DNA of 64,000 bases from Polyangiaceae bacterium (lineage in GTDB: Bacteria; Myxococcota_A; Polyangia; Polyangiales; Polyangiaceae): contig JABSRN010000067.1 of NCBI GenBank assembly GCA_013214025.1, positions 1-64,000 on the forward strand, read 5' to 3'. Below are positions 24,390 through 56,365 of this stretch, one piece after another. A program made the position numbers and the translations under genes. Under the pieces are notes generated by a model. That model worked only from the letters and a program-made list of their open reading frames with translations. It had not been told where the DNA came from and searched no databases. Position 1 is the stretch's first letter. Each line of letters starts with the position of its first letter.

Positions 24390-26135
24390 CTACGGGCGGG
24401 TATAAACCCAGACGATCGGCACACCATTGTGATGGCCGACGTGACCGGGGGCGACGACGCCGTAGTCCGTCCATATCTGGTAGTCGACCTGCAGCATGTG
24501 CGGCTCATGGTGATAGACTGCGATGTTCGATCCTGCGACGCCCAGTTGGCGGTGCATCCCCTTTCGAAGACGCCCGTCTTTCACCATCATGTCCCAGCTC
24601 TGCAACGCCGTATCGTGGACGAAGGCGCGAGCGCGAGGTGGCGCCTTGTCGTTGATGAAGTCCTGTACCGAACCGGTGGCATATCCCCAGAAGGTCCGAT
24701 TCAGACCCAGAGTAGCAGCACCGGGCGCGCCGCCGACTAACGGCGTGTAGCAACTCAGACCCCAGGGGTGCGAATTCTGCGTCATCGCGAGCGGTCCCAC
24801 CAGACAGCTCAGGGTCATCGCCGGCGCGGCGATGCGCCCGAGCCAGGGAGCCGAAGACAAGCTGCGGATCTCGCGAAGCACCCAGTCAAATCCGAGGCCT
24901 CCCAAGAGACACACGAAGGGATAGGCGGTGATCCAATGCTTGGTCCCGCCGAAGATAGGTGAATTCGATGATATCCACGGCGCGTAACTAACGAGGACGC
25001 ACAATAGCCAAAACGAACGCGCCGATTTGTGGCGTCTAGCATCCGAGCCCAGGGCTCGTCGCGAGCGAAAGCGCGCAAACACACCGGCGCCGACATCGAA
25101 GTACGCCTCTTTGAGGGCCCGATAGCTCCCCAGCAAGAAGAGACCTAGCGTAATCGCGGGCACGGTTCCCGCAGTCATCAGCCAGGCATAGAGGCGAGGC
25201 ATAGGAGGACGAAAGAAGGTCTCCCCGAGGAATTCCATATTGTAAAATACGTGTCCGGTGTGGAATGCGACGTACTCGGCCAAGCGGTTGCCGGTGTCGA
25301 ACCAGATCCACGGCCACGTCAGGTAGAATACCACCGGCCCGATAATGGCCATGGTGAACAGGGCCAGCGGAACGCGCGCGTGACCTACCTTCAGGTTACG
25401 ACCCACTCGCGGGCCGCGCATCACCAACCAGTGCACAATCAGCACACCGGGAAACAACCAAGAGTTGTGCTTGGTATTGAGAAAGAAGCCATACAAGACG
25501 CCGGCTAGCAACGCCCAGGGAAGGCCGCCGCCGACCGTACTGCGCCAATACACATAGCTCGTCAGCAGCCACATACTCAGCACCGGCATGTCGAAGCAGT
25601 CCAGATGCGAGTGGTAGAAGACCCGGGGGATCAGCGCAAAGGAGGCGGCGGCAAACAGCCCCGCCGTTCGACTGATAGCCCTGCTCCCCCACAAATAGGT
25701 AATGGACACCGAAGCCGCGCTCATCACCATCGCTGGAAAGCGAAAGGCCGTGCCCTCCTCGCTGAACCAATGCCACTTCAGGTAGAGATACTTATACGAC
25801 AGCGCGAACAGGGTCTTGATGAACGCCGGGTGTTCGTGATTGTTGCCCCAGTAGCGGTCCACGGAGGAGCGCAGCATGGCGCGATCGAAATCCGTGAAGA
25901 GCAAATCGATCCAGCGGGCGTAGCTCTTCCCCGCGCCAAAGTAGAAACCCTCATCGCGAGCGTAACCCAGGTCGGCTACCGTGAGCAGCAGTGCCGCCAT
26001 ATACCCACCCGCCAAGGCCAGAGCGATGCTCCAATCCATGGCGCGATGAGCGAGCAGACGCTGAGCGAAGCTAAGCTGCACGGGACCGGAAGGCTCGCGG
26101 GCGCCGACCGGACCGCTATCCCCTTCTGCCGTCAT
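24390..26135 (-). CDS. GT39 (PMT-type) membrane glycosyltransferase
   Basis: A 581-residue polytopic membrane protein of the dolichyl-phosphate-mannose-protein mannosyltransferase fold. After the first membrane segment comes YARDEGFYFGAGKSY, with the Asp-Glu pair that is catalytic in this family, then NNHEHPAFIKTLFAL and further membrane helices (about ten). The last 130 residues form a soluble tail. It probably transfers a sugar from a polyprenyl phosphate to a protein or lipid at the outer face of the inner membrane. The start chosen overlaps the stop of the upstream gene (ATGA), which supports coupling and replaces a longer frame to 26252. The polyprenol-P-mannose synthase at 29381 could supply its donor. 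Confidence 0.82.
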   Translation of the reverse strand: MTAEGDSGPVGAREPSGPVQLSFAQRLLAHRAMDWSIALALAGGYMAALLLTVADLGYARDEGFYFGAGKSYARWIDLLFTDFDRAMLRSSVDRYWGNNHEHPAFIKTLFALSYKYLYLKWHWFSEEGTAFRFPAMVMSAASVSITYLWGSRAISRTAGLFAAASFALIPRVFYHSHLDCFDMPVLSMWLLTSYVYWRSTVGGGLPWALLAGVLYGFFLNTKHNSWLFPGVLIVHWLVMRGPRVGRNLKVGHARVPLALFTMAIIGPVVFYLTWPWIWFDTGNRLAEYVAFHTGHVFYNMEFLGETFFRPPMPRLYAWLMTAGTVPAITLGLFLLGSYRALKEAYFDVGAGVFARFRSRRALGSDARRHKSARSFWLLCVLVSYAPWISSNSPIFGGTKHWITAYPFVCLLGGLGFDWVLREIRSLSSAPWLGRIAAPAMTLSCLVGPLAMTQNSHPWGLSCYTPLVGGAPGAATLGLNRTFWGYATGSVQDFINDKAPPRARAFVHDTALQSWDMMVKDGRLRKGMHRQLGVAGSNIAVYHHEPHMLQVDYQIWTDYGVVAPGHVGHHNGVPIVWVYTRP

Positions 26136-27106
26136 CGCGTGTCCGCCTGAAAGCAAAAATGCCGTGAGCGCGGGCGGGCTGAGCTGATCACGAACTCGAC
26201 CTCCGCTGTTTGCCCCGCCCACCTTGCCGTGGGAAATTCGAAACCCTTCCAACCATCGTAGTTGTCGTGGACGGTCTCACCAATGAGCGTGCCGTCCACA
26301 CTGACAGAGAGCTTCACTTTGCCGCCCTTGCCATCTCGTGCCTTGAGCTCGCTCAATCCCGTGTAACCTCGGATCTGAGCGGCCATGGCTACACGCCCGA
26401 AGTTCACCTTGAGAGGCGCGCGACCGGGATGAGCCCAAATACAGCGACGTGGACGAAATCTCGCTGAATCAATGACGGTCTCACCGATAAATACGTGATC
26501 GGGTCCGGAACACTGGAAGCGCTTCTTGGGAAAGGTAGCGTGACCTGCCAGGGCTCCGTTGCTCACCCGGGCATTACGTCGGTAGGCGCAGTTCTTGTTG
26601 CCAAGATGAACCTGCAAATCGTCCGGCGTCAGATGATCAACAAATCGATACTGGGGTTTTGCCGGAGCCGGGTTCTCCAATACGCGGAGGCGGAATTTTC
26701 CGAACGTTTCCGTGCTGATGACTTTCCAACCTTCGAGCTCGTTCGCCGACTGGTTGAGGATGCTGATCTCAATCGCACGCGGGTAGGCGCTCTCGTCTGC
26801 CCGCGCCACGTCTCGGAGCGGCATCCAACGCTCCCCCAAGCCGTATCGCGCGTTGGGCTCAGCCCACTCCGGGGTCATCAGGACAAGATCGCCTGACTTG
26901 GCGAGCTTGGCTACTCGGGGGCCGAGCTCTCGATATGCCTCGGGGGCAGGCGCTCGGCCCGCGAAAAAGAAGTGCGCCGTCAGCTCCAGGACTCCGAAGA
27001 GAGGAACCAGCAACCATAGAAGTTTCGCGGTTGGCACGGCGAGCGGACCTTGCCACAAAGCAGGGTCCCCAGGAGCCACAAAGCTCGATAGTCTGGGCCC
27101 ACCCAT
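26132..27106 (-). CDS. Membrane-anchored protein of unknown function, coupled to GT39
   Basis: About 324 residues. One hydrophobic segment near the N-terminus (AKLLWLLVPLFGVLELTAHFF) is followed by a domain with DLVLMTPEWAEPNARYGLGE, LEGWKVISTETFGKFRLRVLEN, a pair of Cys-containing segments (NKNCAYRRNA, RFQCSGPDHVF) and a C-terminal beta-sandwich (KVKLSVSVDGTLIGETVHDN, AEVEFVISSARP). The tail resembles carbohydrate-binding-like sandwiches. It overlaps the GT39 gene by four bases. The ATG at 27106 overlaps the divergent start at 27105 on the other strand; an internal GTG near 27037 is another choice. No known family assigned. Confidence 0.6.
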   Translation of the reverse strand: MGGPRLSSFVAPGDPALWQGPLAVPTAKLLWLLVPLFGVLELTAHFFFAGRAPAPEAYRELGPRVAKLAKSGDLVLMTPEWAEPNARYGLGERWMPLRDVARADESAYPRAIEISILNQSANELEGWKVISTETFGKFRLRVLENPAPAKPQYRFVDHLTPDDLQVHLGNKNCAYRRNARVSNGALAGHATFPKKRFQCSGPDHVFIGETVIDSARFRPRRCIWAHPGRAPLKVNFGRVAMAAQIRGYTGLSELKARDGKGGKVKLSVSVDGTLIGETVHDNYDGWKGFEFPTARWAGQTAEVEFVISSARPRSRHFCFQADTR

Positions 27107-28730
27107 GGGCAAACCCGACGTTTTCCTGCCTTCCCGATGGATTCGGCAATGTGCAGCCTGGCTGCGGGACCATCCAACGGACTCCGCTGCCATCGTGGCA
27201 GCGCTAACGCTGTCGCTACTAGTCATCGTGGGACCGTTTTTCGCCACCGATCGCCCCCCGCTAGTGGACCTTCCCACCCACGCCGCACAGATTTCCATAT
27301 TCCGACACTATTTCGACCCGGCGTTTCACTTCCGCGAGCAGTTCACGCTGCACCCTCTGCAGGTCCCGTACCTTTCGATGTTCGCGGTGGGATCGATCGC
27401 CGCCCTCGTCTTCCCCATCACGGGAGCGGCAAAAATATCCGTCTTGAGCATGCTCTGCTTGCTGCCGGTGGGTCTCGCAGTATTTTTTCTCGGCATGAAG
27501 AAGAGTCCCTACTGGGGACTGCTCGGTCTCGGACTGATTTGGACCGAAGTGCTGTCGTGGGGCTTCGCGAGTTATCTCGGCGCTCTGGGACTGTCCGCGA
27601 TGGCCATCGGGATCGCGTTGATGGTTCTCGATTCGCCGTCGCGGAAGAAACAGATCGCCCTGGCTTTGGTGCTGCTCGTGATATTTTTTACTCACATTTA
27701 CCGCTTGCCGTTCACCCTCCTCTGCATCGGGCTCACCGCCGGCGTTCTCTATCCCGCCTGTGGTCGCCTGCGCCCCGTGCTGCTGCCAATGTTACCGGCA
27801 CTGCTGGCCTTGAGCTGTTGGTTAGGGGTACGAACCGTAGACACGGCCCTGAGCTTGGGCGAACTGAGGCTAGAAATCGGGCGCCTCCCGACGCTGGGCC
27901 GCCATGTGTTCGGAAGCTATTTGCACGCCGCCGGCGCTCGAGAAACTCAACTTGGCGGGTGGCTGCTCACCGCTGCGGCCGGCTTGGGACTGCTGGCTAC
28001 CGCCCTGTTCTTCGTGCAGGGTCGCCACCGAACTGAGACGCGCCGCAAGCGCTACTGGGGCGCCGGCGTCACAGCACTGCCCGCCCTGATAGCGGTCGCC
28101 TATCTCTTCACCTTCCTGGTGCTCCCGCTAAACATCGGACAGTGGTATTTCGTCTATCCGCGGGAGGCAGTCAGCGTTGTCTTTTTCGCGCTGGGAATGA
28201 TGCCCGATCTGCCTCGCGCCTGGTCGTGGAGAGTCCCCATGTTCGCGGTGGTGGCTGCCACTACCCTCCCCATGTCCTCCTTCGTGTTCGATCGGTGGTC
28301 GGAGTTTCAGTCAGAATCAGAGCAACTCGACCAAGCCATCTCCCGAATGCGGCCGGCTCCGAAGCTTAGTTATCTGATCTTCGAGCCCCAGGGCGACACG
28401 AGTCAGGCGCACCCGCCGGTTCTGCACTTTCCCGCTTGGGTTCAAGCGGAGCTGGGAGGCGCCCAGTCGTTTAGCGTGCTCCAATTTGGACACAGCCCGA
28501 TCCGCTACCGGAAGGATTCAACCTGGACCCCACCACTGGCGCCGGCGCGTTGGGAGTGGACACCCCAGCAGTTCGACATAGGCGAACACGGCACATGGTT
28601 CGACACCTTCCTCGTCCGCATGCACTCGAACGTCGATCCCTCGTCATTGTTTCATGCTGACCCGAGTATCAGACTAAGCGGCCACTTCGGACGTTGGTGG
28701 TTGTTCTCCCGAGACCGCACAAACAATTAG
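27105..28730 (+). CDS. Polytopic membrane protein, possible GT-C enzyme
   Basis: A 541-residue protein with about ten membrane segments and a C-terminal soluble region of about 110 residues. The first outer loop reads FATDRPPLVDLPTHAAQISIFRHYF; an Asp followed by a conserved His in this loop is reminiscent of GT-C glycosyltransferases, but the identification is weaker than for the neighbours. The start is the ATG of MGKPDVFLPS inside a CCATGG palindrome shared with the divergent gene. Followed by the hairpin array. Function unknown; an envelope glycan role is suggested by context only. Confidence 0.62.
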   Translation: MGKPDVFLPSRWIRQCAAWLRDHPTDSAAIVAALTLSLLVIVGPFFATDRPPLVDLPTHAAQISIFRHYFDPAFHFREQFTLHPLQVPYLSMFAVGSIAALVFPITGAAKISVLSMLCLLPVGLAVFFLGMKKSPYWGLLGLGLIWTEVLSWGFASYLGALGLSAMAIGIALMVLDSPSRKKQIALALVLLVIFFTHIYRLPFTLLCIGLTAGVLYPACGRLRPVLLPMLPALLALSCWLGVRTVDTALSLGELRLEIGRLPTLGRHVFGSYLHAAGARETQLGGWLLTAAAGLGLLATALFFVQGRHRTETRRKRYWGAGVTALPALIAVAYLFTFLVLPLNIGQWYFVYPREAVSVVFFALGMMPDLPRAWSWRVPMFAVVAATTLPMSSFVFDRWSEFQSESEQLDQAISRMRPAPKLSYLIFEPQGDTSQAHPPVLHFPAWVQAELGGAQSFSVLQFGHSPIRYRKDSTWTPPLAPARWEWTPQQFDIGEHGTWFDTFLVRMHSNVDPSSLFHADPSIRLSGHFGRWWLFSRDRTNN

Positions 28731-28831
28731 GCCGTCCGTCCGTAATTTTCGGTATTGGCGAAGCGCAATTTCAATCTTGAACGAAGAGCGCTCAAGACGC
28801 CCCTAAGCGCACGAACCGTTGCGCCAAAATT

Positions 28832-28848
28832 TTGGCACGGGCTGTGCT
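28832..28848 (+). promoter_or_regulatory. Sigma-54-type promoter before the hairpin array
   Basis: TTGGCACG-N4-GTGCT matches the sigma-54 consensus TTGGCACG-N4-TTGCW at 12 of 13 defined positions, with GG at 28834-28835 and GC at 28846-28847, the required ten-base separation. Transcription would start near 28859. The upstream half overlaps a perfect palindrome GCCAAAATTTTGGC (28823 to 28836). An inverted repeat CTTGA-N11-TCAAG about 40 bases upstream might bind an activator. No coding start follows for over 500 bases, so the product is most likely RNA. Confidence 0.72.
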
Positions 28849-28858
28849 CTACAAGTGT

Positions 28859-29196
28859 GGCAAGGCACGAACTTCTGGCCCTCCAGCCAGGGTTCCTGCC
28901 GAGATTTTCGCACAGCGGCCCATCAGAGTCCCCCCCTCCGGGCCGCTGTGTTTTTTTTCGCACAGCCATTCGACGAATCCCCCCCTCCGCTGAATGGCTG
29001 TGTTTTTTTCTCTCACGGCGACCCGGCCCCCCCCTTTGGGTCGCCGTGAACCTCTTCTCACAGTCGCTGAACCTTCCCCCCCCTCGGTGAAGCGACTGTG
29101 TTTTTTTATCACGGCGGCCTGAATACCCCCCCCATGAGGGTCGCTGTGACCTTTTCCCGAAGCCATCTGGACCCCCAGATGGCTTTGTCTTTTTTG
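28859..29196 (+). ncRNA. Tandem C-rich-loop hairpin array, candidate regulatory RNA
   Basis: Six hairpins follow at about 50-base spacing: stems 28911-28921/28940-28950, 28961-28971/28992-29002, 29013-29024/29038-29049, 29059-29068/29091-29100, 29109-29119/29139-29149 and 29160-29170/29175-29185. Stems are 10 to 12 pairs and differ from each other, but runs of 7, 7, 8, 8, 8 and 5 cytosines sit in the loops (in the last, partly in the stem); the first two read CCCCCCCTCC. T runs of 8, 7, 7 and 6 follow hairpins 1, 2, 4 and 6. A small hairpin with loop CCTCCA (28875 to 28890) precedes them. Different stems with retained C-loops indicate conserved structure. The loops could pair with Shine-Dalgarno sequences. 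Related in idea to actinobacterial 6C RNA and to Myxococcus Pxr RNA; identity is not established. Confidence 0.75.
29160..29195 (+). terminator. Final terminator of the hairpin array
   Basis: Stem AAGCCATCTGG / CCAGATGGCTT, loop ACCC, followed after four bases by six T. It is the shortest-looped hairpin of the array and the most likely end point of the full-length transcript. Confidence 0.75.
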
Positions 29197-29380: not shown

Positions 29381-30151
29381 ATGAGCAATGACCCGCAGAT
29401 GGACGACGTCCAGAGACCGAAAGCCAACCGCCAGCGGAATTGCCTGATCGTCACTCCCACCTACAACGAGCGGGAGAACCTACAGCTGTTCCTCCAGGGG
29501 GTGTTCGCTGCTGCGCCCGACGTTCGGGTGATGATCGTCGACGATGCCTCACCCGATGGCACAGGTGAGCTCGCAGACCAGATCGCCCGAGAGGACAAAC
29601 GAGTGTCGGTACTGCACCGCCCGAAGAAACTCGGGCTGGGCACGGCCTACATCGAGGCCTTCCAGCGAGGCCTACTCGACGGCTTCGATTACTTCATCGA
29701 AATGGATACCGATCTGTCCCACGACCCCGGCTATCTGCCTGACTTTTTCCGCGCCTTCGAGAGCGGAGCCGACGTCGTTGCCGGTAGCCGGAACATCCCC
29801 GGTGGCAGCGTCGAAGGGTGGGGACCTGCCCGCCATCTATTGAGTCGCGGGGGCTCGATTTATTCACGGTGGATCCTAGGCGTAGACGTGGCGGATCTCA
29901 CCACCGGCTACAAGGGCTTCACCCGCAGCGCCCTCGAGCGGATCGATCTCTTTCAAGTCCGCAGTAACGGATACTCATTCCAAATTGAAATGACCTTCCG
30001 CGCTCTGCAAGCCGGCCTTCGGGTCCTCGAAGTCCCTATAGTCTTCGTCGATCGCCGGGCGGGGCAGAGCAAAATGAATCGCCGCATCTTCGCAGAGGCG
30101 ATCGGCGTGGTCTGGAAACTGCGCTACGCCGCCGCGCGGGGCCAGCTGTAG
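29381..30151 (+). CDS. Polyprenol monophosphomannose synthase (GT2, Dpm1-like)
   Basis: A 256-residue cytoplasmic family 2 glycosyltransferase. It shows CLIVTPTYNERENLQLFL, the nucleotide-sugar motif VDDASPDGTGELAD, the metal-binding FIEMDTDLSHDP, ADVVAGSRNIPGG and a GYSFQIEMTFRA region, all typical of dolichol- or polyprenol-phosphate mannose synthases. No C-terminal membrane domain is present, as in bacterial Ppm1 catalytic domains. It would make polyprenyl-phosphate-mannose (or a related sugar) from a GDP-sugar. This donor is what the GT-C enzymes on either side would use. The sugar is inferred from family only. Confidence 0.88.
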   Translation: MSNDPQMDDVQRPKANRQRNCLIVTPTYNERENLQLFLQGVFAAAPDVRVMIVDDASPDGTGELADQIAREDKRVSVLHRPKKLGLGTAYIEAFQRGLLDGFDYFIEMDTDLSHDPGYLPDFFRAFESGADVVAGSRNIPGGSVEGWGPARHLLSRGGSIYSRWILGVDVADLTTGYKGFTRSALERIDLFQVRSNGYSFQIEMTFRALQAGLRVLEVPIVFVDRRAGQSKMNRRIFAEAIGVVWKLRYAAARGQL

Positions 30152-32184: not shown

Positions 32185-32258
32185 GCGCCCCTAGCTCAGC
32201 TGGATAGAGCATCGGACTTCGAATCCGAGGGTCGAAGGTTCGAATCCTTCGGGGCGCA
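32185..32258 (+). tRNA. tRNA-Arg (anticodon TCG)
   Basis: A complete 74-base cloverleaf: acceptor GCGCCCC/GGGGCGC, D stem GCTC/GAGC, anticodon stem TCGGA/TCCGA with loop CTTCGAA (anticodon TCG at 32219 to 32221), T stem GAAGG/CCTTC with loop TTCGAAT, discriminator A. No CCA is encoded. It reads CGN arginine codons. Confidence 0.96.
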
Positions 32259-55865: not shown

Positions 55866-56060
55866 GCGAGCTCGCGCTCTCGAGAGAAAGTTCCTCGAAC
55901 GATATTGTTCGAGCGTTGCAACCCGGGTCATCCGACTCCCCTCGTGCTCCCTAGAACATTGATAGTTCTGTAGAACCCGAAGGTTACGGCGGCGGCTCCG
56001 CGCCGGACTCTCACCGGCTTCCCACTAGTGCCAAAGCACCACCCCGTGCTCACGGGGACA
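55866..56060 (-). ncRNA. Cobalamin riboswitch controlling the receptor operon
   Basis: Reading on the minus strand: GGTGCTTTGGCAC, GTGGGAAGCCGGTGAGAGTC, CGGAGCCGCCGCCGTAAC, and a B12 box GAGTCGGATGACCCGGGTTG near 55940 to 55920. These are the core segments of the class in order. Behind it lies a hairpin CTCGAAC/GTTCGAG, then a CTCGAG-rich stem that includes the ribosome site GAGGAG of the first gene. Control is probably by hiding that site when adenosyl- or other cobalamin is bound. Confidence 0.82.
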
Positions 56061-56164
56061 TCACAACGCCGGGACTCAATCACAAGCGCCCCCTGCTTGG
56101 CAAGCTGCTCGGATTGACACCTCAGTGAAAGGGGCGTTAAGAATTCAGCTAATTACATAGTTAT

Positions 56165-56365
56165 TTCAACGTCACGGGTGCCCGCGCTGGGCATAACAGG
56201 GAAGTTCGGTGAAATGCCGACGCGGTTCCCGCCACTGTAAGGGGTCAACACCCCGAGCCAGGATACCTACCCGAGACAAACCAACAGCATTGCGTGGACA
56301 CAGAGCTGTTGGTCGAGAGCTCTCGCTCTACCCGACGTCCTCACGACCTTGGGTTTTTTCGTTTG
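56165..56365 (+). ncRNA. Cobalamin riboswitch controlling the lipoprotein at 56387
   Basis: Plus-strand core: GGGTGCCC, AACAGGGAA, GGTGAAATGCC, CCCGCCACTGTAA and the B12 box AGCCAGGATACCT (about 56236 to 56270). Downstream is a stem CCAACAGC/GCTGTTGG (56281 to 56312), a likely part of the kissing-loop region, and then GGGTTTTTTCG before the gene, which may be the U run of a terminator-type switch. The two riboswitches are back to back in one 535-base gap. Confidence 0.9.

Follow-up and report, generated by a model that had tools for sequence, protein, structure and literature searches.

A predicted sigma54-controlled array of six C-loop hairpins and a wider family of C-loop RNAs in Polyangiaceae

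The 64,000-nucleotide stretch of Polyangiaceae DNA analysed here (the window) contains an intergenic array of six C-loop hairpins, the largest member we found of what is apparently a conserved and so far undescribed family of structured RNAs with selected C-loops. Comparison of sequences suggests that a single promoter type, common to the members, activates this family in most Polyangiaceae. We consider it fairly probable that the array encodes a non-coding small RNA (sRNA) of Polyangiaceae that acts in trans, is driven by an activator and sigma54, and has C-loops that would pair with G-tracts without Hfq.

The array, its promoter and its enhancer palindrome

The array (28859-29196) lies in a gap of ~650 bases between a 625-aa ORF and a family-2 glycosyltransferase (GT2) gene. 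Folding of the 372-nt stretch gives -167.8 kcal/mol, compared with -104 +/- 5.6 for shuffled sequences (z = -11.5; 0/100), and seven hairpins in all, a leader and six C-loop hairpins (Table 1). A first, sequence-only reading had placed the six here with 7, 7, 8, 8, 8 and 5 cytosines in their loops, and both the places and the C-runs were recovered, as was the small hairpin with the loop CCTCCA ahead of them, which forms in the minimum-energy fold. The same reading had called the stems all different; indeed no two are alike, although they have 10-16 pairs and not 10 to 12. Five of the hairpins follow a CACRG...CYGTG pattern (28911-28950, 28961-29002, 29014-29048, 29059-29100 and 29110-29148), and the sixth spans 29158-29187. 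Hairpins 1, 2, 4 and 6 resemble intrinsic terminators, since T-runs directly adjoin them (TTTTTTTT, TTTTTTT, TTTTTTT and TCTTTTTT, respectively); these runs had gone unmentioned before. No U-tract follows hairpin 3 or hairpin 5. Used as a DNA query, the whole array showed similarity nowhere beyond its own genome, a draft of 184 contigs. A tRNA gene (32185-32258, plus strand) lies ~3 kb downstream, and two cobalamin riboswitches stand back to back further on (55905-56078, minus strand, and 56159-56288, plus strand, with 80 bases between them).

Table 1. Positions of the array, its control elements and selected genes in the window
Feature	Position	Strand	Remark
Sigma54 activator gene, 652 aa	6993-8951	+	GETGTGKE and GAFTGA motifs
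Sigma54 activator gene, 1473 aa	9617-14038	-	Apparent protein kinase domain first, activator domain last
ORF, 625 aa	26853-28730	+	Upstream of array; no Pfam family
Enhancer (UAS) palindrome TTTCA-ATCT-TGAAC	28769-28782	+	TTTCAATCTTGAAC; 9/10 match to TTTCAN4TGAAA
Sigma54 -24/-12 promoter	28833-28847	+	TGGCACGGGCTGTGC, from sequence; CM match 28833-28908
Leader hairpin, loop CCUCCA	28864-28900	+	Minimum-energy fold
C-loop hairpin 1 (C7UCC), then T8	28910-28958	+	R2 match 28906-28961
C-loop hairpin 2 (C7UCC), then T7	28960-29009	+	R2 match 28956-29013
C-loop hairpin 3 (C8), no U-tract	29013-29049	+	R2 match 29009-29059
C-loop hairpin 4 (C8UC), then T7	29059-29107	+	R2 match 29054-29111
C-loop hairpin 5 (C8), no U-tract	29109-29149	+	R2 match 29105-29159
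Final hairpin 6 (C5) and intrinsic terminator	29158-29195	+	TCTTTTTT; terminator scan
GT2 glycosyltransferase gene	29381-30151	+	Downstream of array

Upstream of the hairpins stands a box with the correct spacing for a sigma54 -24/-12 element, also absent from the earlier reading, and from its position the RNA is predicted to start near 28859. A box with identical internal spacing was present upstream in 7/7 of the arrays found first. A scan for sigma70 promoters returned none on the array strand.

The enhancer-like palindrome of the window stands 64 bp upstream of the box. In a set of 75 loci, TTTCAN4TGAAA was found at a match of at least 8/10 upstream of 64/75, against 6/74 downstream and 2.4 expected from shuffles; at 9/10 the counts were 41 upstream and 1 downstream, with 0.05 from shuffles. 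The distances from palindrome to box cluster at about -56, -66, -77, -88 and -97 (R = 0.76 at 10.5 bp, with a p-value that is only nominal because the loci are related). As a helically phased palindrome precedes nearly all family loci, one activator probably serves them all; and as it is common to single hairpins and arrays, the two appear to belong to one sigma54 regulon, probably under that one putative activator.

A search for an activator gene adjoining the array, like the one at pxr, had no result, and motifs of sigma54 activators or kinases were absent close to the array and to the related loci examined. In the window, enhancer-binding-protein motifs come no closer to the array than 18-20 kb. 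The two activator genes of the window (Table 1) are 15-20 kb distant, and no tie was found between them and the array palindrome.

Orthologous arrays and a wider family of single hairpins

A loose pattern search of relatives uncovered four hairpins at 55-57 base spacing in genome G020, with ATCCCCCCTCCG in every loop. A tighter pattern detected two hairpins each in G112, G116, G117 and G012, with 0 matches in reversed-pattern controls, and the array of G122 has three. Three spaced CCCCCTCC units used as a probe returned mostly coding repeats, yet recovered G020 and G122; the exact loop motif GAYGANTCCCCCCTCC gave only chance and coding matches and was set aside. Homologues of two genes of the window, one of PMT type (24390-26252) and the ORF at 26132-27298, adjoin the array in 6/6 other genomes, and a homologue of the 625-aa ORF does so in G116 and G122. 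Because the flanking ORFs match, the seven arrays represent one orthologous locus, present in three other genera, which therefore carries 2, 2, 2, 2, 3, 4 or 6 hairpins at one place.

Among these orthologues the C-loops are constant and the stems change freely. In 16 array hairpins 95.5% of the cells are paired and double changes occur in 9/11 pairs, giving a covariation score of 0.639 vs 0.202 for shuffled and at most 0.148 for slid alignments. The C-run is kept by all array hairpins, including several that lay outside the strict-pattern selection (G020, G112 and the g13 genomes). With stems that covary in relatives and C-runs that are kept, the proposal of a structured RNA with selected C-loops on divergent stems is borne out.

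The T-runs after hairpins 1, 2, 4 and 6 would also suit a run of terminators, or a 5' leader, serving to insulate or attenuate the GT2 gene downstream and lacking a function in trans; this gene shares the strand of the array, and a homologue occupies that side of the G122 array too. Such a role is quite improbable, as the array has a dedicated sigma54 promoter with a phased enhancer site, its C-loops stay constant while the stems vary, and its relatives number in the hundreds, many next to unrelated genes. Downstream genes differ among genera in identity and orientation, and for this reason the idea of a leader for the gene that follows was discarded.

The wider family consists as a rule of single hairpins. 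A pattern for single members (sigma54 box, 15-45 bases, C6, 8-38 bases, T4) matched 50/184 genomes of the order, against 7 matches in 6 genomes for the reversed control; matches of this kind had first turned up in a scan of the phylum. Nearly all matches in the order fold as a hairpin with the C-run in the loop; L070, L075, L078 and similar matches formed no C-loop hairpin and were dropped. The hairpins begin ~12 bases past the -12 element, so that on this model the RNA of a single member would amount to a terminator hairpin with a C-loop and little else. In 38 single hairpins the outer helix is 94.7% paired. Part of this figure, and the invariance of box and C-run in the set, are given by construction, since the search pattern contained the box and C6 and a stem filter was used to collect the set. 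Double changes occur in 10/11 pairs, and the covariation score is 0.709 vs 0.254 shuffled and at most 0.198 slid. The double changes, the phased palindrome, the synteny of the arrays and the unselected array hairpins are free of selection by the pattern. The upstream gene is constant across many genera at several loci between L076 and L168 (a HemE-like protein at six, another protein at thirteen), which makes the single C-loop genes stable orthologous loci.

A covariance search over relatives, which the sequence-only reading had proposed, gave matches to model R1 in 129/318 genomes of the class, including 93/108 of the family Polyangiaceae, with as many as 13 per genome. Beyond the class, E 0.01 or better was reached in four genomes of the phylum sample, mostly weakly; one of them, G285, has a clear two-hairpin array with sigma54 box and palindrome. 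The hosts include Sorangium cellulosum, Minicystis rosea, Byssovorax and Polyangiaceae metagenome-assembled genomes. Arrays of two to five hairpins recur, for instance five and four in G127 and four in G149. The array of six, to which the sequence-only reading knew no equal, is the longest contiguous array seen, but it is no one-off and belongs to a large sigma54 family. A region of G031 (C1:9573500-9578200, L250) has nine separate C-loop hairpins at ~380-570 base spacing, 8/9 with a sigma54 box and with almost identical stems; from its sequence it is a tandem gene array, not a hairpin array. The genome of the window carries a further C-loop hairpin of the common single type (C129:80966-81013), with neither box nor T-run, perhaps a relic or decayed copy. 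The window array shares with the family the sigma54 box, the phased TTTCAN4TGAAA, loops with at least C6 and a T-run. It has a leader hairpin between box and first C-loop, unlike single members; the first hairpin lacks a C-run in most other arrays too.

Relation to known C-loop RNAs

No Rfam family reached its threshold for the array or its relatives, in keeping with the earlier suggestion of a new RNA. The 6C RNA (RF01066) scored 25.3 bits against a threshold of 47, alphaproteobacterial ar7 (RF02342) 35.6 against 60, and CcsR1/cuckoo RNA (RF02791) 14.4 against 65.3. A literature search, with subscription journals largely outside its reach, found no paper on such RNAs in Polyangia.

The closest known RNA is Pxr of Myxococcus xanthus, which blocks fruiting-body development. 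The parallels with Pxr and 6C drawn by the sequence-only reading were apt. Pxr depends on sigma54, carries a C-run on its first hairpin, of which TTCCCCCC and CCCCCCACCCC are pieces taken from published primers and probe (PMC5568312), is likewise without Hfq, and occurs in Cystobacter as tandem paralogues (PMC5568312, PMC5684412). When one C in the loop of its stem-loop SL1 was changed to A, function was lost although the RNA was still produced (PMC5568312, PMC5684412). The array likewise has a sigma54 promoter directly upstream and C-run loops, six of them. A true Pxr orthologue with added hairpins would account for the sigma54 promoter, the C-run hairpin, the terminal terminator and the absence of Hfq (PMC5684412, PMC5568312), but it is very improbable. 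Pxr has three stem-loops with one C-loop and a separate terminator, SL3, whereas members of the present family have 1-6 C-loops, mostly with T-runs of their own; pxrR and pxrK (NtrC-like regulator and kinase) adjoin pxr, whereas no regulator adjoins the array; and Pxr is reported only from Cystobacterineae, whereas the family here is found in Polyangia, its model matching few genomes outside the class, mostly weakly.

The 6C/B11 RNAs of Actinobacteria also have C-rich loop hairpins, whose partners are G-tracts at ribosome sites. One C-rich loop of B11, no matter which of the two, is enough for repression by way of a 5' UTR that contains six G (PMC10470900), and 6C binds mRNAs by C-rich loops without chaperones, to go by a title cited in the same paper. 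Their loops number two, and sigma54 control and long arrays fall outside that family as described. By the tests made, the array RNA is neither Pxr nor 6C, though similar in its predicted working, because pxrR/pxrK do not adjoin it, its stem layout is different and its scores lie far under the Rfam thresholds. Repeated C-rich pairing motifs are also carried by the copies of LhrC of Listeria. LhrC is a multicopy sRNA with several similar copies (PMC4132741); it is LisRK-controlled and from a Firmicute, and its likeness to the array is one of description. The alphaproteobacterial CcsR1-4/cuckoo RNAs (RF02791) are neighbouring homologous RNAs with an anti-Shine-Dalgarno (anti-SD) C/U motif in their loops. 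They differ from the array family in being RpoH-controlled, processed by RNase E from the ccaF1 transcript and Hfq-binding (PMC8307010).

Proposed function and its meaning for Polyangiaceae

The hairpins, covariation, promoter box, enhancer palindrome, conserved position and family come from sequence comparison; from here we infer transcription, an activator, termination, target pairing and an effect of loop number. A putative enhancer-binding activator on TTTCAN4TGAAA would drive sigma54 RNA polymerase from the box in front of the array. The RNA would be a chain of hairpins, and as most of these are terminator-like, nested RNAs with one to six C-loops may result. Each exposed C6-8(UCC) loop could be a ready-made seed for G-tracts in selected mRNAs, most often close to ribosome sites, where pairing would reduce translation, and more hairpins would give more seeds per transcript. 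The sRNA would work without Hfq, of which none was recognisable in 9 Polyangiaceae genomes including that of the window, with positive control genomes detected. Pairing of C-loops with G-tracts is the best supported reading because of the Pxr mutant, the B11/6C data and the lack of Hfq. A series of terminators near the start of the array would restrict the distal loops, which counts against the proposal, as does the absence of U-tracts from hairpins 3 and 5.

The sequence-only reading had suggested that the loops mask many ribosome sites at once. This was not supported: at 435 predicted starts, a small and crude sample, GGAGG was modestly enriched (18 vs 4 and 8), and runs of G5 were not (6 vs 7 and 10), a comparison in which a few targets would stay invisible. 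Single members have plain C7-9 loops without CCUCC. On this analysis the C-loops more likely pair with specific G-tract targets than with SD sites at large.

RNAs can also act by binding proteins, as CsrB does with CsrA and the sigma54-driven CrcZ with Hfq/Crc. The C-loops might in the same way titrate a poly(C)-binding protein (KH, S1 or cold-shock type) off mRNAs, which is possible above all for the arrays; the same loop motif is repeated on divergent stems in arrays of up to six, many paralogues stand under one activator, and the loop flanks are weakly conserved, the C-run excepted. We hold this to be unlikely, as single hairpins, most of the family, would titrate poorly, a candidate protein was not found, and published C-loop RNAs (6C/B11) act through base pairing.

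One may tentatively go further and picture a Polyangia regulon whose sRNAs number up to twelve or more, each a terminator body with a poly-C seed loop, under one activator, in which loops are amplified in place from one to six and the terminator string sets the seed dose. A terminator string that fixes the seed dose would, if true, be an RNA architecture without earlier description. Since one enhancer palindrome is common to many sRNA genes, the regulator should be findable, and the cultured hosts Sorangium cellulosum and Minicystis rosea make the family directly testable. Polyangiaceae, which include Sorangium, are a major source of natural products, and RNA regulation in them is little known. 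If our reading is true, they have a large sRNA family that has gone undescribed until now, and the lone Pxr of Myxococcus would take its place among wider sigma54-driven C-loop RNAs.
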